From the NCBI RefSeq assembly GCF_030846775.1, contig NZ_CP132910.1:3847001-3911000 (forward strand): a stretch of 64,000 nt of DNA, written 5' to 3'. Each line of letters opens with the position of its first letter. Position 1 is the stretch's first letter. The DNA comes from Geothrix sp. 21YS21S-2 (GTDB lineage: Bacteria; Acidobacteriota; Holophagae; Holophagales; Holophagaceae). A program made the position numbers and the translations under genes. The notes under the pieces are model-generated. The model did no database searches, had not been told where the DNA came from, and was given only the letters and a program-made list of their open reading frames with translations. Below, piece after piece: positions 52,804-62,378 of this stretch.

Positions 52804-52915
52804 GCGTCCCACTTGTCACCATTCTTGGTTACGGTGCCACAATCCCCCTTTAACCTCGACCACGAGGACGGATGCTGATCGCCTTCTTTGTCCTCTGGAG
52901 TGCCATAATTCACAC

Positions 52916-53383
52916 ATGAAAAACCAAGCCGCAGTGATGAAGATCCTACGAGAGGCCAAGGCGTTGGCCCAGCAATACCGGGCGTTGACGGGGAAACCAC
53001 TCGGGATCACGGGCGAGGTGGCGGAATTCGAGGCCGCGCGAATCCTCGACCTCCAACTAACCGAGGCCAGACAAGCGGGCTATGACGCCACCGAAACCCG
53101 GCGGGGACGCCCGTTCCGAGTTCAGATCAAAGGTCGCTGCATTCTGCCGGGGGCCAAGCCTGGACAGCGGCTTGGGGCGATCGATATCTCCAAGGATTGG
53201 GATGCCGTCCTTTTGGTGCTGCTGAACGAGGACTTCGAGGCGACCGAGATTCATGAGGCGCTCCGCGCGAACGTCATCTCCGCATTGGAAGCGCCAGGTT
53301 CCGTCGCCAGGAATGAAAGGCATTCGCTCGGCGTGGCCAAATTCAAATCGATAGGCACTCAGCGTTGGCCCAAACCCAAGTAA
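52916..53383 (+). CDS. DUF6998-like protein, possible PD-(D/E)xK nuclease fold
   Basis: A 155-residue protein. The segment RALTGKPLGITGEVAEFEAARIL, then AGYDATE and FRVQIKGRC is a family pattern I associate with DUF6998. The order E ... D ... QxK matches a PD-(D/E)xK nuclease core, so a nuclease role is possible, but this is inference. It begins 278 nt from the HEAT gene, on the opposite strand. ATG 52916 is preferred; residues upstream of it are not conserved. Confidence 0.6.
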   Translation: MKNQAAVMKILREAKALAQQYRALTGKPLGITGEVAEFEAARILDLQLTEARQAGYDATETRRGRPFRVQIKGRCILPGAKPGQRLGAIDISKDWDAVLLVLLNEDFEATEIHEALRANVISALEAPGSVARNERHSLGVAKFKSIGTQRWPKPK

Positions 53384-53462: not shown

Positions 53463-54242
53463 TCAGAGGGACCGTTTCCTGGCCACTGTTCGCTTCGGTA
53501 AGACGACCTCATCGGCGAATTCGTAATAAACCCTACCGGCGTTCCTGTAGGCTACCATTCCATAACTTATGACGGCGCCCTGCCAGCCACGCGGGAAGAG
53601 CTTGATCGCTGTGCGGAACAACTCTAGGGCAGTTTTTGGCACCCTCGAGAGGTCGACCGGGATTCGGCCTATCGCCGATTCCAATCTCTGATGTCTAAAT
53701 ACGAACGGCAGTTCCGATTTCATCTTAGTAAAAAGTGATTGTACGGTTTCCAGGTCGGAAACTGATGTCAATGTGAAATTGGCAATAATTGGAAAGTTTC
53801 TATCGAAATAACCGGGTTCTGTGTTGTCCCTGTTCTTTCCAGGATCTTTCGGACCGAATCCACCGCCATTCCACATCTGATGATTATAAGTTTCATTATA
53901 TATCATTAACATGAGACCTTCGTTCGCCGCCGTGCTCATAGATTTGTCTAGATAGATAGCTTTATATCCAATCTGATTCAAATCTATGTTAAGGCGTCCA
54001 CTTAATTTTTCGTGATGCTGGCTAAGACGATCATAGATATCATTGGCTTTACCGACATACATTGGCAACTTTTTGTAATACACTACGTAAACTCCCTGAA
54101 GACTTTGATTGCTCGTTTGAAAATCCCTAAGTGCCGTCAGGGAATCCGGATTGAGCACTGTGACTCCAAGGTTCGTCTCCAGCTCTGCGTAGAGCTGCTC
54201 TGAGATCGTCTTGAGGAAATCGAAGGAGAAGTGCTTGTGCAT
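53463..54242 (-). CDS. GIY-YIG nuclease-fold protein
   Basis: A 259-residue protein of clearly lower G+C than its neighbours, a sign of recent transfer. The GIY-YIG core is GVYVVYYKKLPMYVGKANDIYDRLSQHHEK (res 55-90), with the conserved arginine-like position in YDRL and a later Glu in AANEGLMLMIY (res 124-129). This is the layout of restriction enzymes and mobile endonucleases of the GIY-YIG superfamily. ATG 54242 has no clear ribosome-binding site and a longer start is possible. No methylase of its own lies beside it. Confidence 0.72.
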   Translation of the reverse strand: MHKHFSFDFLKTISEQLYAELETNLGVTVLNPDSLTALRDFQTSNQSLQGVYVVYYKKLPMYVGKANDIYDRLSQHHEKLSGRLNIDLNQIGYKAIYLDKSMSTAANEGLMLMIYNETYNHQMWNGGGFGPKDPGKNRDNTEPGYFDRNFPIIANFTLTSVSDLETVQSLFTKMKSELPFVFRHQRLESAIGRIPVDLSRVPKTALELFRTAIKLFPRGWQGAVISYGMVAYRNAGRVYYEFADEVVLPKRTVARKRSL

Positions 54243-54547
54243 GCACCAAGTATGCCCAAAATGGTTCGCGCATACACTTGGGGCCAAGGCAAATATAGCC
54301 GTTGGTCTCCTGAGTCATGTGGACCTGGACGCGTTGCCACTCAAGGTTGCCCGTGGCGAGACGAATGGGAAGCATCCTCTTTCCAATTCAATTGGAGTGC
54401 CTGGAGGGGCTCGGGCCCGGGTTAATGGGGTCGGCGCGGTGATGCCATGTGGACAACAATTCCTTTACCCATTACGTCGATTTGAAGGCCATCAAGCGGG
54501 GGGTAACTCCGGGTGCGGCTCCCGGATGACACGGCTTCGCCTTCCTC
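54243..54547. other. 305-base gap between GIY-YIG gene and multiubiquitin operon
   Basis: A short in-frame segment on the minus strand (54375-54243) reads plausible residues but has no known family and runs into the GIY-YIG gene out of frame, so it could be a remnant. I support no gene and see no strong hairpin. Confidence 0.4.
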
Positions 54548-54985
54548 TCACGAGCCATTGGCCCATTCCTTTAATTTCTGCCATAGCCCGCGCTTCTGCT
54601 TCCTTGCTCCAGGCCGGCCCGCAGCCGCTTCGGCACTGAGATCCATGAAGAATGCCTCCTTCGCCTGGCGGTCATGCTCCCTGCCTTCCACGATCGCAGA
54701 TGGTGACATCCTTTGGGCCCAGACCACCTGGTTGCACCGGATCCAGTAGTGGGATTGGCATTTGAATCCCCAATTGCCGATAGACGGATATAGTGAGACG
54801 CCCCTGCCGTCGAAGATCAGTGTCCAGTCCGTGGGCCTGATGGGTGTGACCACCACGTTCCCGCAGCCGCAGCAGCATTTGTGAGAGGCTGTCGCGAAGC
54901 GCATGGATATGTATATCTCCCCGTCCAGCAGGGCCTCTGGGATGAATTCAACGAACTTGTGGCTGAGGGCGGTTGCTCGCGTCAC
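54548..54985 (-). CDS. DUF6527-like putative zinc protein of the multiubiquitin operon
   Basis: A 145-residue protein. FVEFIPEALLDGEIYISMRFATASHKCCCGCGNVVVTP and then SPSIGNWGFKCQSHYWI match a family I associate with DUF6527. The cysteines (CCCGC near 37-41) with C-x2-H (near 76-79) suggest one zinc site. GTG 54985 overlaps the ThiF stop as GTGA, so it is translated with the E1-like gene. Role unknown; candidates are E2/E3-like carrier, peptidase or substrate adaptor. The C-terminal 30 residues are basic and less conserved. Confidence 0.75.
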   Translation of the reverse strand: MTRATALSHKFVEFIPEALLDGEIYISMRFATASHKCCCGCGNVVVTPIRPTDWTLIFDGRGVSLYPSIGNWGFKCQSHYWIRCNQVVWAQRMSPSAIVEGREHDRQAKEAFFMDLSAEAAAGRPGARKQKRGLWQKLKEWANGS

Positions 54986-56166
54986 TCTGGGCGGTCCTCG
55001 TTGAGAAGCAAATTGCCGTCAATGGTGTATTGGCAATGGTGCTCCTGCTTGAGGTCCCGGTAGAAGCCAAACATTTTTTTCCACTTGATTACCGCCAGCG
55101 CGGCATTGAGGGCGTTGAGGTCGGCGATCTGGATGTTCCGGTCATACTCGTTCCCCCCATCCGCATCAGAGAAGGAGACCCGCCCACGCAGATGGTCCCG
55201 CCGGGCCGGGGTGCTGGTGGTCACTCGTAGGATCCCTCCCAGTGCACCTTCCGCCTCAACCACCCCCATGCCCACGTCGATGAACGGAATTTCGAGGGCC
55301 TCCAGCTTCTCGACGAGCGCTTTTTTGATGGGGCCGCTATCCAGGCAGAGGAAGACAAAGTCCATTCCCTGGAGGCAATCGATATTCTCGTTCTCCAGGT
55401 AGGCCTGGTGATCTATCAGCCCACGGTGCATCCGTGAATAGATCTCCGTGAGATAGGCCGTCTTCCGGGGCCGTTGACGGAGTTGCTCGAGGGTGGGGGC
55501 GCCTGGGGCCCGGAAGGCGTTGTGGGAGAAGAACGTGTCCCCATCGAAGAGGTGGACCTCCCTGACCGGGGTCTTGGCCACCAGGTCGAGGACATAGGAC
55601 CCTGTACCGCCTAACCCGACAATTGCGACCTTCCCTAGCTCCAGCTTCTTGGTTATCAGGGCGATTCCGGCGCGGCTGGAGGCGGTGTCAATGTAATTGA
55701 ACACCGACTCATCCACTTCGGGCTCGACGAGGGCGGAGGTTTTCGCCGAGACCGTGTGATCGAGCCGCCACGCCGGCCCCGATAGGATGTCCACATAGGC
55801 TGATACTTTGGCGTGGAAGTCCGGGTAGAACCCCGATGGCTGCGGCTTGGCTGAGAAACAACGGTCCACAACGACCCCTTCCGCGAGGGTCTGGGGCCCG
55901 GCTGGGTTTTTGATTTTTTCTATCTCGGTTCCGTCTTCGAAACAAGGCTGCTCGCCGGCGAAGTAGGCCACGTGGTCCTCCGGCCTAGCGGTTTCATCCC
56001 CGGCCAGGTTGAGCTTCATCACCAGCGTGCCGCGGAGGATCTCCCTGCGCGAGTTGACGTAAGGGACGTTCTTCACCAACAGGTGGCCTGACTTGATTCG
56101 AAGGCTGTACCCTTCCTCCCACAGGTTTTTGAGGTCTTGGCTACGATTTATCAGTTGTCGTGACAT
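54982..56166 (-). CDS. E1-like (ThiF) adenylating enzyme with DUF6791-type N-domain
   Basis: A 394-residue protein. The N-domain (res 1-160) has HLLVKNVPYVNSRREILRGTLV and HVAYFAGEQPC. The ThiF/E1 fold follows, with the nucleotide motif VAIVGLGGTGSYVLDLVAKTP near 178, then HLFDGDTFFSHNAFRAPGAP (the DxDxxxxxNxxR Mg-ATP motif), and LCLDSGPIKKAL. It should adenylate the C-terminus of a ubiquitin-like protein. The catalytic Cys is not certain; C97 (in EQPC) and C272 (in FLCLDS) are candidates. It overlaps the multiubiquitin gene by 26 nt and ends in the overlap with the DUF6527-like gene. Confidence 0.85.
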   Translation of the reverse strand: MSRQLINRSQDLKNLWEEGYSLRIKSGHLLVKNVPYVNSRREILRGTLVMKLNLAGDETARPEDHVAYFAGEQPCFEDGTEIEKIKNPAGPQTLAEGVVVDRCFSAKPQPSGFYPDFHAKVSAYVDILSGPAWRLDHTVSAKTSALVEPEVDESVFNYIDTASSRAGIALITKKLELGKVAIVGLGGTGSYVLDLVAKTPVREVHLFDGDTFFSHNAFRAPGAPTLEQLRQRPRKTAYLTEIYSRMHRGLIDHQAYLENENIDCLQGMDFVFLCLDSGPIKKALVEKLEALEIPFIDVGMGVVEAEGALGGILRVTTSTPARRDHLRGRVSFSDADGGNEYDRNIQIADLNALNAALAVIKWKKMFGFYRDLKQEHHCQYTIDGNLLLNEDRPE

Positions 56167-56620
56167 TGAAGATCATCTCCTTCTTGATGTGGACGGATTG
56201 GCCCTCCTTCAAGGATCCTTCGCGGTTTTCGCGCGGGCCGTCCTCATAGGAGATGGTGAATAAGATGTTCGGCCCAGACGGGATGGGGTTGAAGGCGAGG
56301 GCGACAAGTTGGTCGAACGAAATCATCGGCCCGGTCGTCATCTTCGCAGTCCCGTTCACGAAGATTTGGACCTCCTTGACCCGTTTTGGCCCGGTGTGGA
56401 AATGATCGTCCTCCTGGAGGTGGAAGGGTTCAGGGCCGTTGGCGATGGGCTGGTCCTCCTCGTCCCCCCTGACCTCGCGGAAAAGGACGAGCCCCTCCGC
56501 CACCTGGCCGAGCCGGTAAAGGGCCTCACCGGTGGTGGGACTGGAGGCATGGTATGGGGATTGGTCGATGTGGATCCTGACCTGATGGGGTTGTACCGAT
56601 TCTGAGCCGGTTTCATGCAT
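56141..56620 (-). CDS. Multiubiquitin protein: two tandem ubiquitin-like domains
   Basis: A 159-residue protein with two beta-grasp domains, about 12-78 and 82-157. Repeat 1 runs from VRIHIDQSPYHASSPTTGEALYRL to EPFHLQEDDHF; repeat 2 from VQIFVNGTAKMTTGPMISFDQL to EGSLKEGQSVHIKKEMIFNV. This is the bacterial multiubiquitin pattern. The C-terminus is TTTDKS with no diglycine, so if conjugated, the chemistry must differ or the tail must be processed. ATG 56620 has GGAG seven bases upstream. First gene of the three-gene operon. Confidence 0.85.
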   Translation of the reverse strand: MHETGSESVQPHQVRIHIDQSPYHASSPTTGEALYRLGQVAEGLVLFREVRGDEEDQPIANGPEPFHLQEDDHFHTGPKRVKEVQIFVNGTAKMTTGPMISFDQLVALAFNPIPSGPNILFTISYEDGPRENREGSLKEGQSVHIKKEMIFNVTTTDKS

Positions 56621-56710: not shown

Positions 56711-56754
56711 GCATACGTCAGCTTACGAAGCTTACAAGGGGTACAAAAAAATTT
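56711..56754 (-). promoter_or_regulatory. Promoter and operator of the multiubiquitin operon
   Basis: On the minus strand TTGTAA and TATGCT, 16 bases apart, make a fair sigma-70 promoter. They overlap a 20-base sequence (56719-56738) that reappears, with three differences, at 57809-57828 in front of the XRE gene. Four GCTTAC/GTAC-like half-sites are spaced about ten bases apart. About 90 bases of leader follow to the ATG. Confidence 0.6.
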
Positions 56755-56757
56755 ATC

Positions 56758-57447
56758 CTATCCGCCGTCCCCGAGGGGGTAAAGGGTGTTCAGCCTGATT
56801 CGGGAAACGGCGGGATTCACGTCGAAGATCTCGGCGAGGGACCTGACCGCGTCTTCCCGCAGTGACTCCGGGACGGTCACCTCTGTAAGCTCACCAGGGC
56901 GGATGAGGAAAGGCTCCAACGCGGTTCGGAGGGTCCGGCGCGGCAGCAGGAGGGCGCCGATCGACTTGTTGGCCTGGAGTTCCCACCAACGGCCGTCATA
57001 GGTCTGGCGAATTTGTCGCTCCGCGTCTCGACAGAGCACCTTGGTCGCCGAGACGTCGGGATCCCGCCCGAACAAGGAGAGACCGACGTCCTTGAATGCG
57101 AACAGATGGGCATGCATGAGGCAGTGCCCCGCCTCGTGGGCGAGCGTCGAGTTGAGTCGGCGCTCCAACGGTTTTTCTCCGTTGCCCACCAGGTGATTCC
57201 CAACATGGACGCTCCGAACCCCTGTGTCGGTGAATAGGGTGTAGCCGAGCACCCCGGCCGGAAGGTCCTCGTAGACAGGGGACACCCCGAAACGTTTCTC
57301 AATAAAACGTTCAACCCGTATCGGTTCCGGATTGGATGGAAGCAAGCCTACGGCCAGGAGCGCCTCCTCACACATTTGGTCGATCTCCCAGTCGCTGAAG
57401 TGCGGACGCTCCAGGAAGGGGCTCCCTCGTCCGTGGAACGTCCTCAT
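56758..57447 (-). CDS. ImmA/IrrE-family metallopeptidase
   Basis: A 229-residue protein. The zinc motif HEAGH is in NSTLAHEAGHCLMHAHLF near 106-110, with an N-terminal FSDWEIDQMCEEALLAVGL segment typical of the family. ImmA/IrrE peptidases cleave XRE-type repressors to switch on mobile elements or stress genes. ATG 57447 overlaps the XRE stop (ATGA). The cognate repressor is the gene in front of it; the targets are probably the two operator sites. Confidence 0.85.
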   Translation of the reverse strand: MRTFHGRGSPFLERPHFSDWEIDQMCEEALLAVGLLPSNPEPIRVERFIEKRFGVSPVYEDLPAGVLGYTLFTDTGVRSVHVGNHLVGNGEKPLERRLNSTLAHEAGHCLMHAHLFAFKDVGLSLFGRDPDVSATKVLCRDAERQIRQTYDGRWWELQANKSIGALLLPRRTLRTALEPFLIRPGELTEVTVPESLREDAVRSLAEIFDVNPAVSRIRLNTLYPLGDGG

Positions 57448-57803
57448 TTTTTCCTCTCCCCGGGGTCGGAGGGGGGAAGTTGATTCTTTAGGATCTTCAA
57501 TTGCTCTTCGACGGGAAGCTCGATGAGTTTCCGGAAGGCGACCCCAAGGGCCGGGTGGGCGTTGGCGATACGTCGCATCTCCTCCACTGGAGGTCGGCTG
57601 TCGTATTGTTGGAGATCCTTGATGGTGGTCTCGAGCGCGTCCGCGAGGTTGACCAAGGTCTTCTCGGATGGAAACCGCCGCCCGAGTTCCACATCGGAAA
57701 GGAACGCCGCAGACGCCTCGCCTACTTTTTTGGAAAGCTCGCGGAGGGAGAGATCCTTGCCTTCCCTCAGTTCCCGGATTCGATCGCCAAGGGTTTTTAC
57801 CAT
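57444..57803 (-). CDS. XRE-family HTH repressor
   Basis: A 119-residue protein. The HTH (res 6-60) reads DRIRELREGKDLSLRELSKKVGEASAAFLSDVELGRRFPS with typical XRE spacing and continues to an oligomerisation or ImmA-recognition region. The ATG 57803 has no ribosome-binding site; the promoter -35 TTGACA (57837-57832) and a TAAGCT -10 at 16 bases put the start of transcription about at the ATG, so the message may be leaderless. It is followed by ImmA/IrrE. Confidence 0.85.
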   Translation of the reverse strand: MVKTLGDRIRELREGKDLSLRELSKKVGEASAAFLSDVELGRRFPSEKTLVNLADALETTIKDLQQYDSRPPVEEMRRIANAHPALGVAFRKLIELPVEEQLKILKNQLPPSDPGERKK

Positions 57804-57806
57804 GAT

Positions 57807-57837
57807 GTAAGCTTACGTTGCGTACAAGTATTGTCAA
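57807..57837 (-). promoter_or_regulatory. Promoter and operator of the XRE-ImmA operon
   Basis: TTGACA (57837-57832) and TAAGCT lie 16 bases apart. The 20-base sequence 57809-57828 between and over them is shared with the multiubiquitin promoter, and GTAAGCTTAC (57807-57816) is a perfect 10-base palindrome. Binding there would block the XRE promoter, a normal autoregulation layout. Confidence 0.65.
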
Positions 57838-57881: not shown

Positions 57882-59744
57882 TCAGGTGGTAATCTTCGCC
57901 ATCTCCTCCGGGAAGGCGTCGAACAGGCTGACCAATCGGTCTTGTGCGGGCGGCTTAGGGTGGACCGGTTCCGCAGGGACCGCGATCGTCGGAAGCGCGA
58001 TGTTGGATTCGCCACGCCGGATCTTCTCGATGCGTGCGCGGAAGAGGTTACAGAACGGATGCGTCGGCCGTCCGTTCGAAGGCAAACTCAATCCGCCTGA
58101 TGCGTATTCATGCTTGTGGTCGTACTGGACGCCCTGTTTCAGGTCGACCACCCCATCACAAATTTCGCAACGGATAGCGGATCCCAGCAGCGCCCGGACG
58201 TTGATTTCCGACCTAATTCCCCGGCTGAAGGCGCGGCTCTTCCCGGATCCGTTCTCGGCGCCTTTACCAGGGCCACCGAGAATCCGGATGGCCTCGGCGT
58301 CCACTTGGTCGTCAGAATCGGCCGCCTTCGCCAGCAGCATCTCCACCAGTTTCTCGATCGTGTCTGAGATGGGAATGGCCGATTTGAACCCGGCCCCGGC
58401 ATTGTGCTGGATCTGGGCGAACGGGTCTTTGTAATCGATTAGGATCCTTTCAAGCCGCCCCCGCACGGATGAGAAGGCAATCTTTCGCTCCCTGATCTGG
58501 TCCTCGTCACCGCGCAACAACCAGTAACACCAGCCATAGAAAAGGCCACGGACATAGCCGCCCTTCTTGTTATACCAATAAATCAATGGAGCCACGGAGA
58601 GTGTCGTCGATCCGTGGCTACGATCGGTAAAATGCGAGATCGACGTTTCGATTCGTGTCAACAGGGAATCCGTCTCTGCGATGAGCTCACCAACGTCGTC
58701 GGTAATGCTCCTTTCCATCATTTGGACGTACTTTTCCTCGTCGACGGGATGCCGCTCTGAAAGCAATGGCACGATCTCGATGAGATTCTGATGTCTGCGT
58801 GAATCGGCGGAGGTCACGACCAACGGAACGTTGATGTCGACGATCTTGGCATCGAAGGGTGGGATGAAAAGCGCCTTGCTGATGTCTCCGCACCGTTTGG
58901 AGAATTTGCTAAGTTTTGACGACGCCTCGCCGGCCAGGTTCAACGAAGGCGCCGGCATCGGCCAGTAGTGCCCTGCCGCACCGTCGTTGGCGATCGACAT
59001 GATCGTGCGGCAAATGCCCCCCTTGCGGTATTCAATCAACAACTGTTCGGTGGGATCGAGAGGAGCCCCCTGCCGGTTGATGTCCAGGAATGAGGCCTCC
59101 GCAGCCGCGTAATCCCCTTCCTCCCATTGGGCGTGAAGGGTACGGTTAGCCCTGGTCATCGCCCGCAGAAATTGGGCTCTTGCCGCTAGGGTTTCTGGCA
59201 GATCCACTTTGGGCGCGCCTCCGCGGTCGGCGACCTCGTCCCATTCCTTCAACGCCGCGCAGAATTCCTGGAAATGGCCGATCCTCTCGCCGACGCAGCG
59301 CCGGGTCGTCTGGGCCGTCGTGATGATCTCCTCGTAGTTCTCACAGTGTGCGTAGAAGTCGTTAGCCGCCCTGTCCCCCCAGTCGTCGACCATCCAGGCC
59401 CGCAGAACAGACAACCGGTGTGCCCCATCGAGGACGTACACCTGCCCGGTTTCTTTGCTTCTCCAGAGGATGATCGACGGGATGATCCGTCTATGGACGA
59501 CCGAATCGAGGAACTTCACGCAATCCTCGGTATCCCAAGCGCAGGTCGCACGCTGGAAGTCCGGTTTGCGCAAGCTCGTGAACCAACCTTCCTTTATGTC
59601 GTCGAACCGGATGCTCGGATCTGGTCGGCCGTCGAATGGGTCGATGGGAGAGTCCTCCGCAACCAACGCCTGATACCGCAGGCTCTGCCGGCGGATGAAG
59701 TGGTCGAGATGAACGCGCGGACCCTTGGCGGCAAATTTGGCCAT
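57882..59744 (-). CDS. DUF262-like/ParB-fold protein with C-terminal HNH domain
   Basis: A 620-residue protein. The N-domain has KPDFQRATCAW, then HRRIIPSIILW and VYVLDGAHRLSVLRAW, the DUF262/ParB-like hallmark with DGAHR replacing DGQQR. An HNH site lies near 530-575: CEICDGV, YDHKHEYASGG and THPFCN. The arrangement resembles type IV or modification-dependent enzymes (GmrSD-like) and DUF262-HNH defence proteins. ATG 59744 has GGAGG upstream. It lies between the XRE gene and Vsr. Target unknown. Confidence 0.7.
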   Translation of the reverse strand: MAKFAAKGPRVHLDHFIRRQSLRYQALVAEDSPIDPFDGRPDPSIRFDDIKEGWFTSLRKPDFQRATCAWDTEDCVKFLDSVVHRRIIPSIILWRSKETGQVYVLDGAHRLSVLRAWMVDDWGDRAANDFYAHCENYEEIITTAQTTRRCVGERIGHFQEFCAALKEWDEVADRGGAPKVDLPETLAARAQFLRAMTRANRTLHAQWEEGDYAAAEASFLDINRQGAPLDPTEQLLIEYRKGGICRTIMSIANDGAAGHYWPMPAPSLNLAGEASSKLSKFSKRCGDISKALFIPPFDAKIVDINVPLVVTSADSRRHQNLIEIVPLLSERHPVDEEKYVQMMERSITDDVGELIAETDSLLTRIETSISHFTDRSHGSTTLSVAPLIYWYNKKGGYVRGLFYGWCYWLLRGDEDQIRERKIAFSSVRGRLERILIDYKDPFAQIQHNAGAGFKSAIPISDTIEKLVEMLLAKAADSDDQVDAEAIRILGGPGKGAENGSGKSRAFSRGIRSEINVRALLGSAIRCEICDGVVDLKQGVQYDHKHEYASGGLSLPSNGRPTHPFCNLFRARIEKIRRGESNIALPTIAVPAEPVHPKPPAQDRLVSLFDAFPEEMAKITT

Positions 59745-59812
59745 TGGCTTGACCTCCGACTCGTCGAGGAACTGGGTACACCGAAGATACCACCGGTCGG
59801 GAAAGCCCACAG

Positions 59813-60271
59813 CTACACAGGCCCCCCCGGGAGCCTGGCTGAAGGGGGGCCGAGGAATTCTACCAGTCGGTGGCCAACAGCCTCCGGTTGTTTAAGTTCG
59901 CACTCCCAGACGACCATGAACTCCCACCCCAAGGCCACGAGGTTTCGCTCGGCCAGGAGATCCCTTTCCTGGTTCCGACGTCGCTTCTCCTCCCAGAATG
60001 CGACGTTTGTCCTGGGTAGCCTGGTCCCATTGGGACACGTGTGCCCGTGCCAGAAACACCCGTGGACCCAGACAACCTTCCTCCGCCCCGTGAACGCTAA
60101 GTCGGGCGAGCCTGGCAAGGTCCGCAGGCGCAAACGATAGCGGTACCCCATCGCGTGGAGCAACCGTCGGACGGTAAGTTCGGGGCGGGTGTCCTGCGAA
60201 CGGACCCGTGACATCACCCAACTCCGGAACCCGTCCTCCCCCGGCTTGGGTCTTCCTCCCGTCCTAACCAT
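59813..60271 (-). CDS. vsr: Very-short-patch repair endonuclease Vsr
   Basis: A 152-residue protein. WVMSRVRSQDTRPELTVRRLLHAMGYRYRL and PGSPDLAF...KVVWVHGCFWHGHTC are diagnostic. Vsr nicks T/G mismatches created when a 5-methylcytosine deaminates and so repairs the sites of its partner methylase. It is beside the Eco29kI-like restriction pair, whose methylase makes 5-methylcytosine. It is divergent from the restriction gene. Confidence 0.95.
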   Translation of the reverse strand: MVRTGGRPKPGEDGFRSWVMSRVRSQDTRPELTVRRLLHAMGYRYRLRLRTLPGSPDLAFTGRRKVVWVHGCFWHGHTCPNGTRLPRTNVAFWEEKRRRNQERDLLAERNLVALGWEFMVVWECELKQPEAVGHRLVEFLGPPSARLPGGPV

Positions 60272-60341
60272 AGGATTGAGGATCGATCCCCCTCTTGTGG
60301 CGCGCAAGAGGATATCGGTCGCTGGGGCGCGGGCTGGTGGT

Positions 60342-60354
60342 ATGTTTAAAACAT
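60342..60354. promoter_or_regulatory. 13-base palindrome over the restriction gene start
   Basis: ATGTTT-A-AAACAT (60342-60354) is perfectly symmetrical and overlaps the ATG at 60353. TATGTT (60341-60346) may be the -10 of a leaderless message. Restriction genes are often held down by such a site; no C protein gene is evident. Confidence 0.45.
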
Positions 60355-61186
60355 GAACAAATTAAAAACGGGTTCTATTCCTCTGGTTGACTGGGCCGAG
60401 GGCCTTGAGGCCCTCCTACTCCCAATTCCGACCTCGGAAAGCGAACTCACTGCGGATCAGTTGTCGAAGGTCCGCCGAAACGTGTCGCGGACGATTGAGC
60501 GGCTGTCCGAACTTGCCCGCGCATGGGACCCGGTCCGCCTACCATCGACGATTTTCAATCCTTCCGATCCGGCGATCATGGGGCCGATGATCGGGCTTGC
60601 CCTGCTGGCTCAACCAAGGGTTCCCCTCGGAAAGGTCGGTAGGTTCTATGGGTCCGGCGTCTATGCCATCTATTATCGCGGGGATTTTGACGCCTACAAT
60701 CCGCTCAAAGGGGCAGAGCACCCGATCTACGTCGGCAAGGCCGACCCGAAGGACCCCAAAGCGGACTCGCCGATCCTCCAGGGCACCAAGCTCGCCGACC
60801 GCCTTGGGGAGCACGCCAGGAACATCGGCAGGGCCTCCAATCTGAACTTGGAGGACTTCGAATGCCGCCACCTGGTCGTCGTCAGCGGCTGGCAGGGATC
60901 CGCTGAAACCTTCCTCATCCGGCTATACGAGCCGGTTTGGAACAGTGAGACTGGGATCTGCTATGGCCTGGGCAAGCACGGGGACGCTAGCACGACCCGC
61001 GCCAACAAACGTTCTCCATGGGATACCCTTCATCCAGGCCGGACTTGGGCGGCCAATGGGGACCAGGGGGACCAACACTCGGAGGTGTCGATCCGGGCCC
61101 GGATCGCGAAACACCTGCAGGAACACCCGCCCCTCTGGACCATCGAGGAAGGAGTCGAACGTTTTTTCGCCGCTCTCCGGGCTTGA
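60353..61186 (+). CDS. Eco29kI-like type II restriction endonuclease (GIY-YIG fold)
   Basis: A 277-residue protein. The GIY-YIG core is GVYAIYYRGDF...HPIYVGKAD near 102-131, followed by LADRLGEHARNIG (the catalytic Arg region) and the later ETFLIRLYEPVWN (metal-binding Glu). The N-terminal 90 residues are helical. Close in layout to Eco29kI, which cuts within CCGCGG; the site here is unproven. The methylase gene is convergent with it, 10 bases away. Start is ATG 60353. Confidence 0.88.
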   Translation: MNKLKTGSIPLVDWAEGLEALLLPIPTSESELTADQLSKVRRNVSRTIERLSELARAWDPVRLPSTIFNPSDPAIMGPMIGLALLAQPRVPLGKVGRFYGSGVYAIYYRGDFDAYNPLKGAEHPIYVGKADPKDPKADSPILQGTKLADRLGEHARNIGRASNLNLEDFECRHLVVVSGWQGSAETFLIRLYEPVWNSETGICYGLGKHGDASTTRANKRSPWDTLHPGRTWAANGDQGDQHSEVSIRARIAKHLQEHPPLWTIEEGVERFFAALRA

Positions 61187-61196
61187 GCAGGGCCCC

Positions 61197-62378
61197 TCAG
61201 GCCGACATCAAGTGCGCCTTCACGCTTGAGGCCACCGCGAGGGCGAGGTTAACCGGGACTGCGTTCCCGAGTTGCCGCATCACTTCGCCCCACGCCCCGC
61301 GGAAGACATACTCGTCCGGGAAGGTCTGAAGCCTGGCGCTCTCCCGGACAGTAAAGTAGCGCACCCCCCCGTCCGCTCCGAGGAGCATGTTCTCGCCGCC
61401 GGGGACGCCGTGCCCTCCGGCCTTCAAGGTTTTCGCCGGAGCGTCCCAAGGGCTGCCCGTGTGCCCTGGATAAGAGCGTGCCCCGGGGTTGAACAGGTGG
61501 TTGTGGAAGGTCTCCCCGCCGTTCCCGCGAGTGGGGTCTGGAAGGTCGGCAATTGCGTCGCGGACAGTCTTCCAGGCCTCCCCTGATGGACAGCCCTCGC
61601 CCCTCAAACGGTCCAATCGCGCTTTGATGGCCTCGGGACACTTGGGACGGCGCCTTTTGGCGACCTCGTGTCGTTCCCAATACTCGCCCGTGACCCACTG
61701 GTCCCAGATGAGCCTCTCCTCGTTATGGGTCGGGCTCGGGAATGACCAGGCCGGGAACTGATCCTCGCGAAACCCGACGATAACAACCCGTTCACGACGT
61801 TGCGGAACGCCGTAATCCGCGGCGTTCAAGAGGCGGAACACCACTTGGTAGTTCAACCCCGACCTCCGGCCCTTCCCGGTGTGATGGCGCTCCAGTCTCT
61901 TCAGGTGGTCGGGCCATTCCTCGCCCTCCCGCTTGACTATCTCCGGGTGAGTGAGTTGGAGGATGATGTACCCGAAGTAGCTGGCGAACGACTGACGCAG
62001 CAATCCTTTCACGTTCTCCACCATGAAGCCCTTCGGCTTCAGTTCTCGGACCGCCCGGACCGCCTCTGGAAACATGTCCCGCTCATCCTCGTGCCCGCGA
62101 TGCTTACCGCCAAGGGAGAACGGCTGGCACGGGGGGCCCCCGGCTACGAGGTCGATGCCTTCACCAAGGAGCGAGTAGTCGTATTTGCGGACATCGCATT
62201 CAACGACCTCCCAATCACGCACCAGTTCTACCTTGCGGCGCTTGTTCTCACGGATGGTCTCACAGGCATCCGGGTTCCATTCCAGCACCGCTTCGTGGTG
62301 AAATCCGGCCTTAGCGGTTCCGATGGCCAAGCCACCGGCACCGGCGAAAAGTTCGATCGCTCTCACAGCACTCCCCAT
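61197..62378 (-). CDS. C5-cytosine DNA methyltransferase of the restriction system
   Basis: A 393-residue enzyme. Motif I is AIELFAGAGGLAIG, motif IV with the catalytic Cys is GGPPCQPFSLGG near 82-88, motif VI MVENVKGL, motif VIII NAADYGVPQRRERVVIVGF, and motif X GEVMRQLGNAVPVNLA. The target-recognition domain lies between about 235 and 330. It protects host DNA from the linked restriction enzyme. Confidence 0.95.
   Translation of the reverse strand: MGSAVRAIELFAGAGGLAIGTAKAGFHHEAVLEWNPDACETIRENKRRKVELVRDWEVVECDVRKYDYSLLGEGIDLVAGGPPCQPFSLGGKHRGHEDERDMFPEAVRAVRELKPKGFMVENVKGLLRQSFASYFGYIILQLTHPEIVKREGEEWPDHLKRLERHHTGKGRRSGLNYQVVFRLLNAADYGVPQRRERVVIVGFREDQFPAWSFPSPTHNEERLIWDQWVTGEYWERHEVAKRRRPKCPEAIKARLDRLRGEGCPSGEAWKTVRDAIADLPDPTRGNGGETFHNHLFNPGARSYPGHTGSPWDAPAKTLKAGGHGVPGGENMLLGADGGVRYFTVRESARLQTFPDEYVFRGAWGEVMRQLGNAVPVNLALAVASSVKAHLMSA

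Follow-up and report, generated by a model that had tools for sequence, protein, structure and literature searches.

A multiubiquitin, DUF6791-ThiF and DUF6527 operon of Geothrix sp. 21YS21S-2: a type 6e relative of Bub with a candidate serine/tyrosine-based conjugation route

The operon and its occurrence

In the window analysed here, a 64,000-nucleotide stretch of the Geothrix sp. 21YS21S-2 genome, the minus strand at 54548-56620 carries three open reading frames that overlap by 26 and 4 nt and encode a Multi_ubiq protein (Ubl), a DUF6791-ThiF (E1-like) protein and a DUF6527 protein. Judged from its sequence, this operon is of a known but uncharacterised and well conserved type, a member of the domain-X subset of type 6e and a sister to the Bub system. 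The two-unit Ubl, an adenylation domain of the E1 kind that retains its catalytic residues, the fused DUF6791 and the DUF6527 can be read directly, with Pfam matches in all three proteins too strong for chance. The best explanation, which we hold with modest confidence, is that of a self-contained Ubl conjugation operon of the type 6e domain-X kind, which would be serine/tyrosine-based and induced by DNA damage. No assay of any such trio operon was found in the literature.

Much of what the first-pass annotation had proposed for this locus is borne out, namely the two tandem ubiquitin-like units, the ThiF/E1 enzyme with an extra N-domain, the putative zinc protein, the missing diglycine and the lack of a separate E2 or JAB gene beside the operon. 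Its view that the combination is undescribed is superseded, as this is already type 6e of Iyer et al. 2006 (PMC1779556) and structures of the sister Bub system have been solved; it also overlooked a capH/capP-like pair adjoining the operon. The new points concern the shared Tyr341, an invariant Ser105 together with a weak link to E2 enzymes, the invariant terminal serine of the Ubl, the mutual exclusion of DUF6791 and Prok-E2_E, and a predicted CapH operator.

A tblastn search with the E1 matched 117 plasmid records, and the annotated plasmid neighbourhoods belong to Pseudomonadota (including Acinetobacter and Rhizobium), Bacteroidota, Bacillota, Actinomycetota and Cyanobacteriota. The order multiubiquitin - ThiF - DUF6527 is kept in nearly all of them, and DUF6527 turns out to be the constant third gene of plasmid trio operons that the first pass had suggested looking for in a neighbourhood survey. 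The Ubl/E1 overlap of 26 nt recurs in nearly all annotated relatives and measures 41 nt in two (L035 and L037); no relatives were found in viral contigs. Among about 297 genomes of Acidobacteriota, the window's phylum, DUF6791 occurred in 8, Prok-E2_E in 10 and DUF6527 in 18. No genome of this survey combined DUF6791 with Prok-E2_E, and DUF6527 was present in 8/8 of the DUF6791 genomes. The source genome itself gave no match to the E2 family E (PF14462, Prok-E2_E) or to Prok-JAB, beside the operon or elsewhere.

Two versions of the system exist, each with a Ubl, an E1 and usually DUF6527, and DUF6791 occupies in one the place that E2 and JAB take in the other. The fuller version is exemplified by a Mesorhizobium plasmid operon (L038) encoding Multi_ubiq, Prok-E2_E, JAB-ThiF, a phosphotransferase-like protein and DUF6527; the E1 encoded there is related to Citrobacter BubCD (1e-33), and the E2-E family to BubB (4e-31). 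In operons of the same E1 family as the one studied here, a separate E2 and a JAB are consistently absent, which argues that nothing is simply missing at this locus. The earlier concern that homologues might regularly include both enzymes thus applies to the JAB-E1 sister family, which has them, and not to the operon's own family. The constancy of the trio across phyla led us to reject the idea of a broken Bub operon that had lost its E2 and JAB.

The operon lies within a defence-type island, whose further genes at 57882-62378 encode a GmrSD-N protein with an HNH-like end (57882-59741, minus strand), Vsr (59813-60307, minus), an Eco29kI-like restriction enzyme (60353-61186, plus) and a C5 DNA methyltransferase (61197-62378, minus); a GIY-YIG protein (53463-54248, minus) and a DUF6998 protein (52832-53383, plus) are also encoded nearby. 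On four plasmids (L002, L005, L027, L033) the trio is placed between genes for a UvrD-helicase and a PD-(D/E)XK or RecB-like nuclease on the same strand, flanks hinting at a link to DNA repair or DNA damage. In the Bradyrhizobium pNK6d operon (L037:3974-5157) the E1 is split into two reading frames by a frameshift.

The three proteins and the adjoining regulators

The Ubl gene (56141..56620, minus strand, 159 aa) has a Pfam match to Multi_ubiq (PF14452, E 8e-16) at residues 84-157, its second unit (56150..56371), which is also matched by the PDB entry 9cd2, 'ZDHYS365 multi-ubiquitin domain protein', at E 4.5e-8. The first half has no Pfam match of its own. Its unit, approximately residues 13-76 (56393..56584), was recognised by hhalign, in which the profile of the first-half segment aligned with the second half at a score of 27.1 and a probability of 64.6%, with 60 shuffles giving a mean of 10.1 and a best of 21.8; the starts of strand 1 and of the helix are in register in the two units. 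By these profile comparisons the Ubl is a protein of two beta-grasp units, one in each half.

In place of a diglycine tail the Ubl ends in FNVTTTDKS. Its last codon, TCG (56144-56146), falls within the overlap of Ubl tail and E1 start (56141..56166), and a terminal serine is found in 32/32 distinct related Ubls of trio operons, encoded in every one by TCN with variation of the third base and of the stop codon. In the E1 frame the T of this codon falls on a wobble base and yet is invariant, which indicates that selection acts on the Ubl; conservation of the terminal serine is nonetheless coupled to the overlap with the E1 frame, and this counts against the best explanation. Trio Ubls are unfused in every case. 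The C-termini of JAB-type Ubls are variable, several ending in Gly, and several of these proteins are fused to E2, so that cutting would be needed. The trio may do without a JAB because its Ubls are never fused and their final C-terminus is already made.

Pfam divides the E1-like protein (54982..56166, minus, 394 aa) into DUF6791 (PF20590, residues 10-161, 4e-52; 55684..56139) and ThiF (PF00899, residues 172-309, 2e-11; 55240..55653), and NCBIfam assigns it to the named family PRK06153.1-4 at 1e-166. Identity to relatives in many phyla is mostly 39-63%, falling to 31-38% in the most distant. The adenylation motif GxGGxG lies at residues 184-189, and 29-30 of 30 trio E1s retain G184, G187, G189, D208, D210, R219, K235 and D276. 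In the AF2 model, whose quality is poor except in the N-domain and the ThiF core, the ThiF domain reaches a VIA Z of ~12 to ThiF, SUMO E1 and BubCD. The trio E1 matches BubCD at E 1.3e-17 and shows a partial resemblance to MccB, TcdA and ThiF. Across the 30 trio E1s no cysteine is invariant, the best being C75 (24/30) and C274 (17/30). A tyrosine, Tyr341 (codon 55144..55146), occupies an alignment column kept in 29/30 trio E1s and 11/12 JAB-type E1s, the two exceptions having no aligned tail there. It aligns with the BubCD tyrosine that is phenylalanine in the Y370F construct (PDB 9eav), and the mutation of Tyr370 in a solved complex suggests a catalytic or transfer role for that residue.

The N-terminal DUF6791 has the invariant residues H65, S105, K120 and Y124, and K107 is also conserved; Ser105 (codon 55852-55854) is present in 30/30. 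The AF2 model, built with six sequences, gives this domain a pLDDT of ~80-90 and the topology helix - four strands - loop - helix. In hhalign DUF6791 aligns collinearly with Prok-E2_E, residues 9-83 with 9-82, a weak match (E 0.02, 2% probability) that extends under a permissive setting to 1-135 with 1-127, again weakly. The score was 18.2 (reversed control, 11.5), and 2/150 block shuffles did as well (P ~0.01-0.02); a DUF6527 control reached a similar 18.0 in an alignment of 15 columns, and a score of this size is by itself no proof of homology. PDB profile searches with DUF6791 returned no E2 and nothing relevant, and the fold-comparison lists of the E1 model were filled by its ThiF domain. 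BubB-type E2s have a conserved serine in [WF]SxH, replaced by cysteine in an archaeal (Natrinema) Prok-E2_E (L067:2944-3486), a swap expected of a nucleophile; Ser105 of DUF6791 sits in [FL]SxK(P). The suggestion that the E1 N-domain could supply the E2 function is a possible one, weakly supported by the hhalign result, and we regard an E2-like DUF6791 as about evenly balanced, leaning towards yes. As to the companion suggestion of a peptidase, the DUF6791 profile shows no similarity to the JAB segment.

The third gene (54548..54985, minus, GTG start, 145 aa) matches DUF6527 (PF20137, residues 32-90, E 2e-23). Almost every one of 48 sequences from both operon types keeps C37, C41, P67, S68, C76 and H79, and the signature C37-x3-C41-x34-C76-x2-H79 is of the four-ligand type. 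These residues look like a zinc site and not like an E2, and an adaptor or E3-like factor is the favoured role. A moderate AF2 model (pLDDT 75) had no PDB match at E <= 0.001, with VIA Z <= 3.5, and no sequence relative of DUF6527 was found in the PDB. The C-terminus of trio DUF6527 proteins (54548-54600 in the window) is a cationic tail rich in tryptophan, with LWQKLKEWANGS and LWRKLKKWLL as examples, which may bind membrane or a partner and is absent from phage copies. Lone DUF6527 cores, 40-47% identical to that of the window over the aligned part, occur in Erwinia phage pEa_SNUABM_29 (L073:2492-2758), Burkholderia phage FLC9 (L074:2465-2776) and Dulem virus 40 (L075:2498-2779), and could serve as a counter-defence decoy or an unrelated purpose. 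No Ubl or E1 was found in the phage genome collection, and a supposed homologous gene pair beside the phage copies was rejected, the genes being unrelated. DUF6527 genes without a Ubl operon around them also exist, one in an arsenate-reductase-like neighbourhood (L055:1474-1845) and others in apparent prophage regions (L061, L062).

Directly upstream of the Ubl gene and on the same strand lie a capH-like gene for an HTH repressor (57444..57803, PADLOC E 2e-11) and, overlapping it by ATGA, a capP-like gene for an HEXXH (ImmA/IrrE, M78) peptidase with the motif HEAGH (56758..57447, PADLOC E 5e-9). Upstream of capH and again upstream of the Ubl gene stands an 18-nt element whose two copies agree at 15/18 positions (shuffles, 0.00 expected) and which is a candidate CapH operator: TTGTAAGCTTCGTAAGCT 5' of the Ubl gene (56720..56737, minus) and TTGTACGCAACGTAAGCT 5' of capH (57810..57827, minus), the latter continuing into the palindrome GTAAGCTTAC. 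The regulators are on the operon's strand here and divergent in plasmid relatives, some of which have WYL (CapW-like) proteins or HTH+ImmA pairs. CapH+CapP or CapW accompany 219/544 Bub operons and act on DNA damage, and protection against phage by Bub had not been demonstrated (PMC13373217). The operon is probably switched on by DNA damage.

Proposed mechanism and rival explanations

DNA damage, for instance by a phage, would yield single-stranded DNA and activate the CapP-like peptidase, which would cut the CapH-like repressor and free the promoter. The E1 domain would adenylate the Ubl at the free carboxylate of its terminal serine. The Ubl could then pass via Tyr341, the counterpart of BubCD Tyr370, to the fused DUF6791 by a hydroxyl chemistry common with Bub, a route proposed because no conserved cysteine is available for a thioester. 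DUF6791 would do the work of an E2 in cis, most likely through a Ser105 oxyester, and hand the Ubl to target amines. With the Ubl made unfused and bearing its final C-terminus, a JAB would be dispensable, and DUF6527, instead of being an E2 or JAB, would come into play once the Ubl is activated, in the role of a zinc adaptor or E3-like factor. The most specific form of this proposal, in which a serine-dependent E2-like DUF6791 and the E1 activate and conjugate a Ser-ended Ubl entirely by Tyr/Ser ester chemistry in one polypeptide and without a JAB, is offered tentatively, as a possibility somewhat short of probable.

The position of DUF6791 at the E1 N-terminus, where BubCD has its JAB, could mean that the domain is a peptidase or a regulatory JAB analogue trimming or removing the Ubl, with conjugation left to the E1 directly or to DUF6527. 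Iyer et al. proposed a JAB-like domain X (PMC1779556), and the conserved H65, S105, K107 and K120 could be catalytic. This reading is unlikely, however: the DUF6791 profile aligned with the JAB segment over 7 columns only, no HxH-D metal motif appears in the DUF6791 alignment, and unfused trio Ubls make processing unnecessary.

The terminal serine might instead be activated with no protein conjugation at all, in the manner of MccB or ThiF, the adenylate leading to a modified Ubl or a signal with no target. The cysteine-free trio E1, its partial resemblance to MccB, TcdA and ThiF, and the invariance of the serine agree with this, and in the case of MccB the adenylated C-terminal residue is Asn rather than Gly. 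We nevertheless consider it improbable, as Tyr341 and the E1 core are common to BubCD, and Bub reportedly conjugates proteins, according to the title of Ye et al. (2026), as cited in PMC13373217. The idea of the first-pass annotation that the zinc protein supplies the missing E2 or peptidase fares worst and is highly doubtful. DUF6527 is always part of the trio, with an invariant Ser68 besides its putative zinc ligands, but it is shared by operons equipped with their own E2 and JAB and turns up alone in phages and at other loci.

If the reading of DUF6791 as a serine E2 is true, the operon would represent a minimal one-enzyme ubiquitination pathway. The questions it poses are whether an E1 with no conserved cysteine passes a Ser-ended Ubl via Tyr341 and Ser105, and whether one fused domain replaces both E2 and JAB. 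The trio is widespread and the Bub structures are newly solved, so that sharp predictions are testable at once. The answer would reveal the minimum parts of a ubiquitin-like pathway and assign functions to DUF6791 and DUF6527.

Relation to known systems

In type 6e of Iyer et al. a polyUbl is accompanied by an E2/RWD protein that is inactive, by a fusion of JAB to E1 and by a protein that binds metal; one subset has on its E1 an uncharacterised 'domain X' instead of JAB, guessed to be JAB-like (PMC1779556). This subset, with its polyUbl of 1-3 repeats, its E1 with a non-JAB N-domain and its metal-binding protein, has the parts of the operon described here, where ubiquitin-like repeats, such an E1 and a predicted four-ligand metal-binding partner were found together. 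From the architecture we infer that X of that type corresponds to DUF6791 and Y to DUF6527. The published zinc signature, C-x3-C-x35-38-H-x2-C, differs in ligand order from the C-x3-C-x34-C-x2-H found here.

Bub consists of the Ubl BubA, the E2 BubB and BubCD, in which D104 aligns in a JAB motif, marking it as JAB plus E1. Bub structures (PDB 9ea4, 9ea5, 9ea8, 9eae, 9eav) include solved E1-E2-Ubl complexes, one titled BubCD(D104A/Y370F)-BubB-BubA(155-229). The intermediates of Bub are reported to be serine oxyesters, not thioesters. The Ubl family, an E1 with the conserved tyrosine, the DUF6527 partner and regulators of the CapH/CapP or CapW kind are common to both systems; at the Geothrix locus a Multi_ubiq Ubl and a BubCD-related ThiF E1 are present, and the family-E E2 and E1-fused JAB are absent. 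The trio thus departs from Bub in having DUF6791 fused to the E1 instead of a separate E2 (Prok-E2_E) and JAB, and a Ser-ended, always unfused Ubl. The protein of PDB 9cd2 belongs to the trio Ubl family and has the same TDKS end, whereas at 222 aa versus 159 aa it has a longer N-terminal part; among the annotated matches to its C-terminal unit are trio-type plasmid operons. The E2-E1 fusion Cap2 of CBASS resembles the trio E1 in the layout of an N-terminal transfer domain fused to an E1, but a conserved catalytic cysteine is absent from the trio E1, no JAB Cap3 accompanies it, and Cap2 matches only the start of its ThiF domain. Bil (BilA-D) likewise combines a Ubl and an E1 in a defence context, and differs in having a separate E2, a JAB and a Gly-type tail (PMC11354881).
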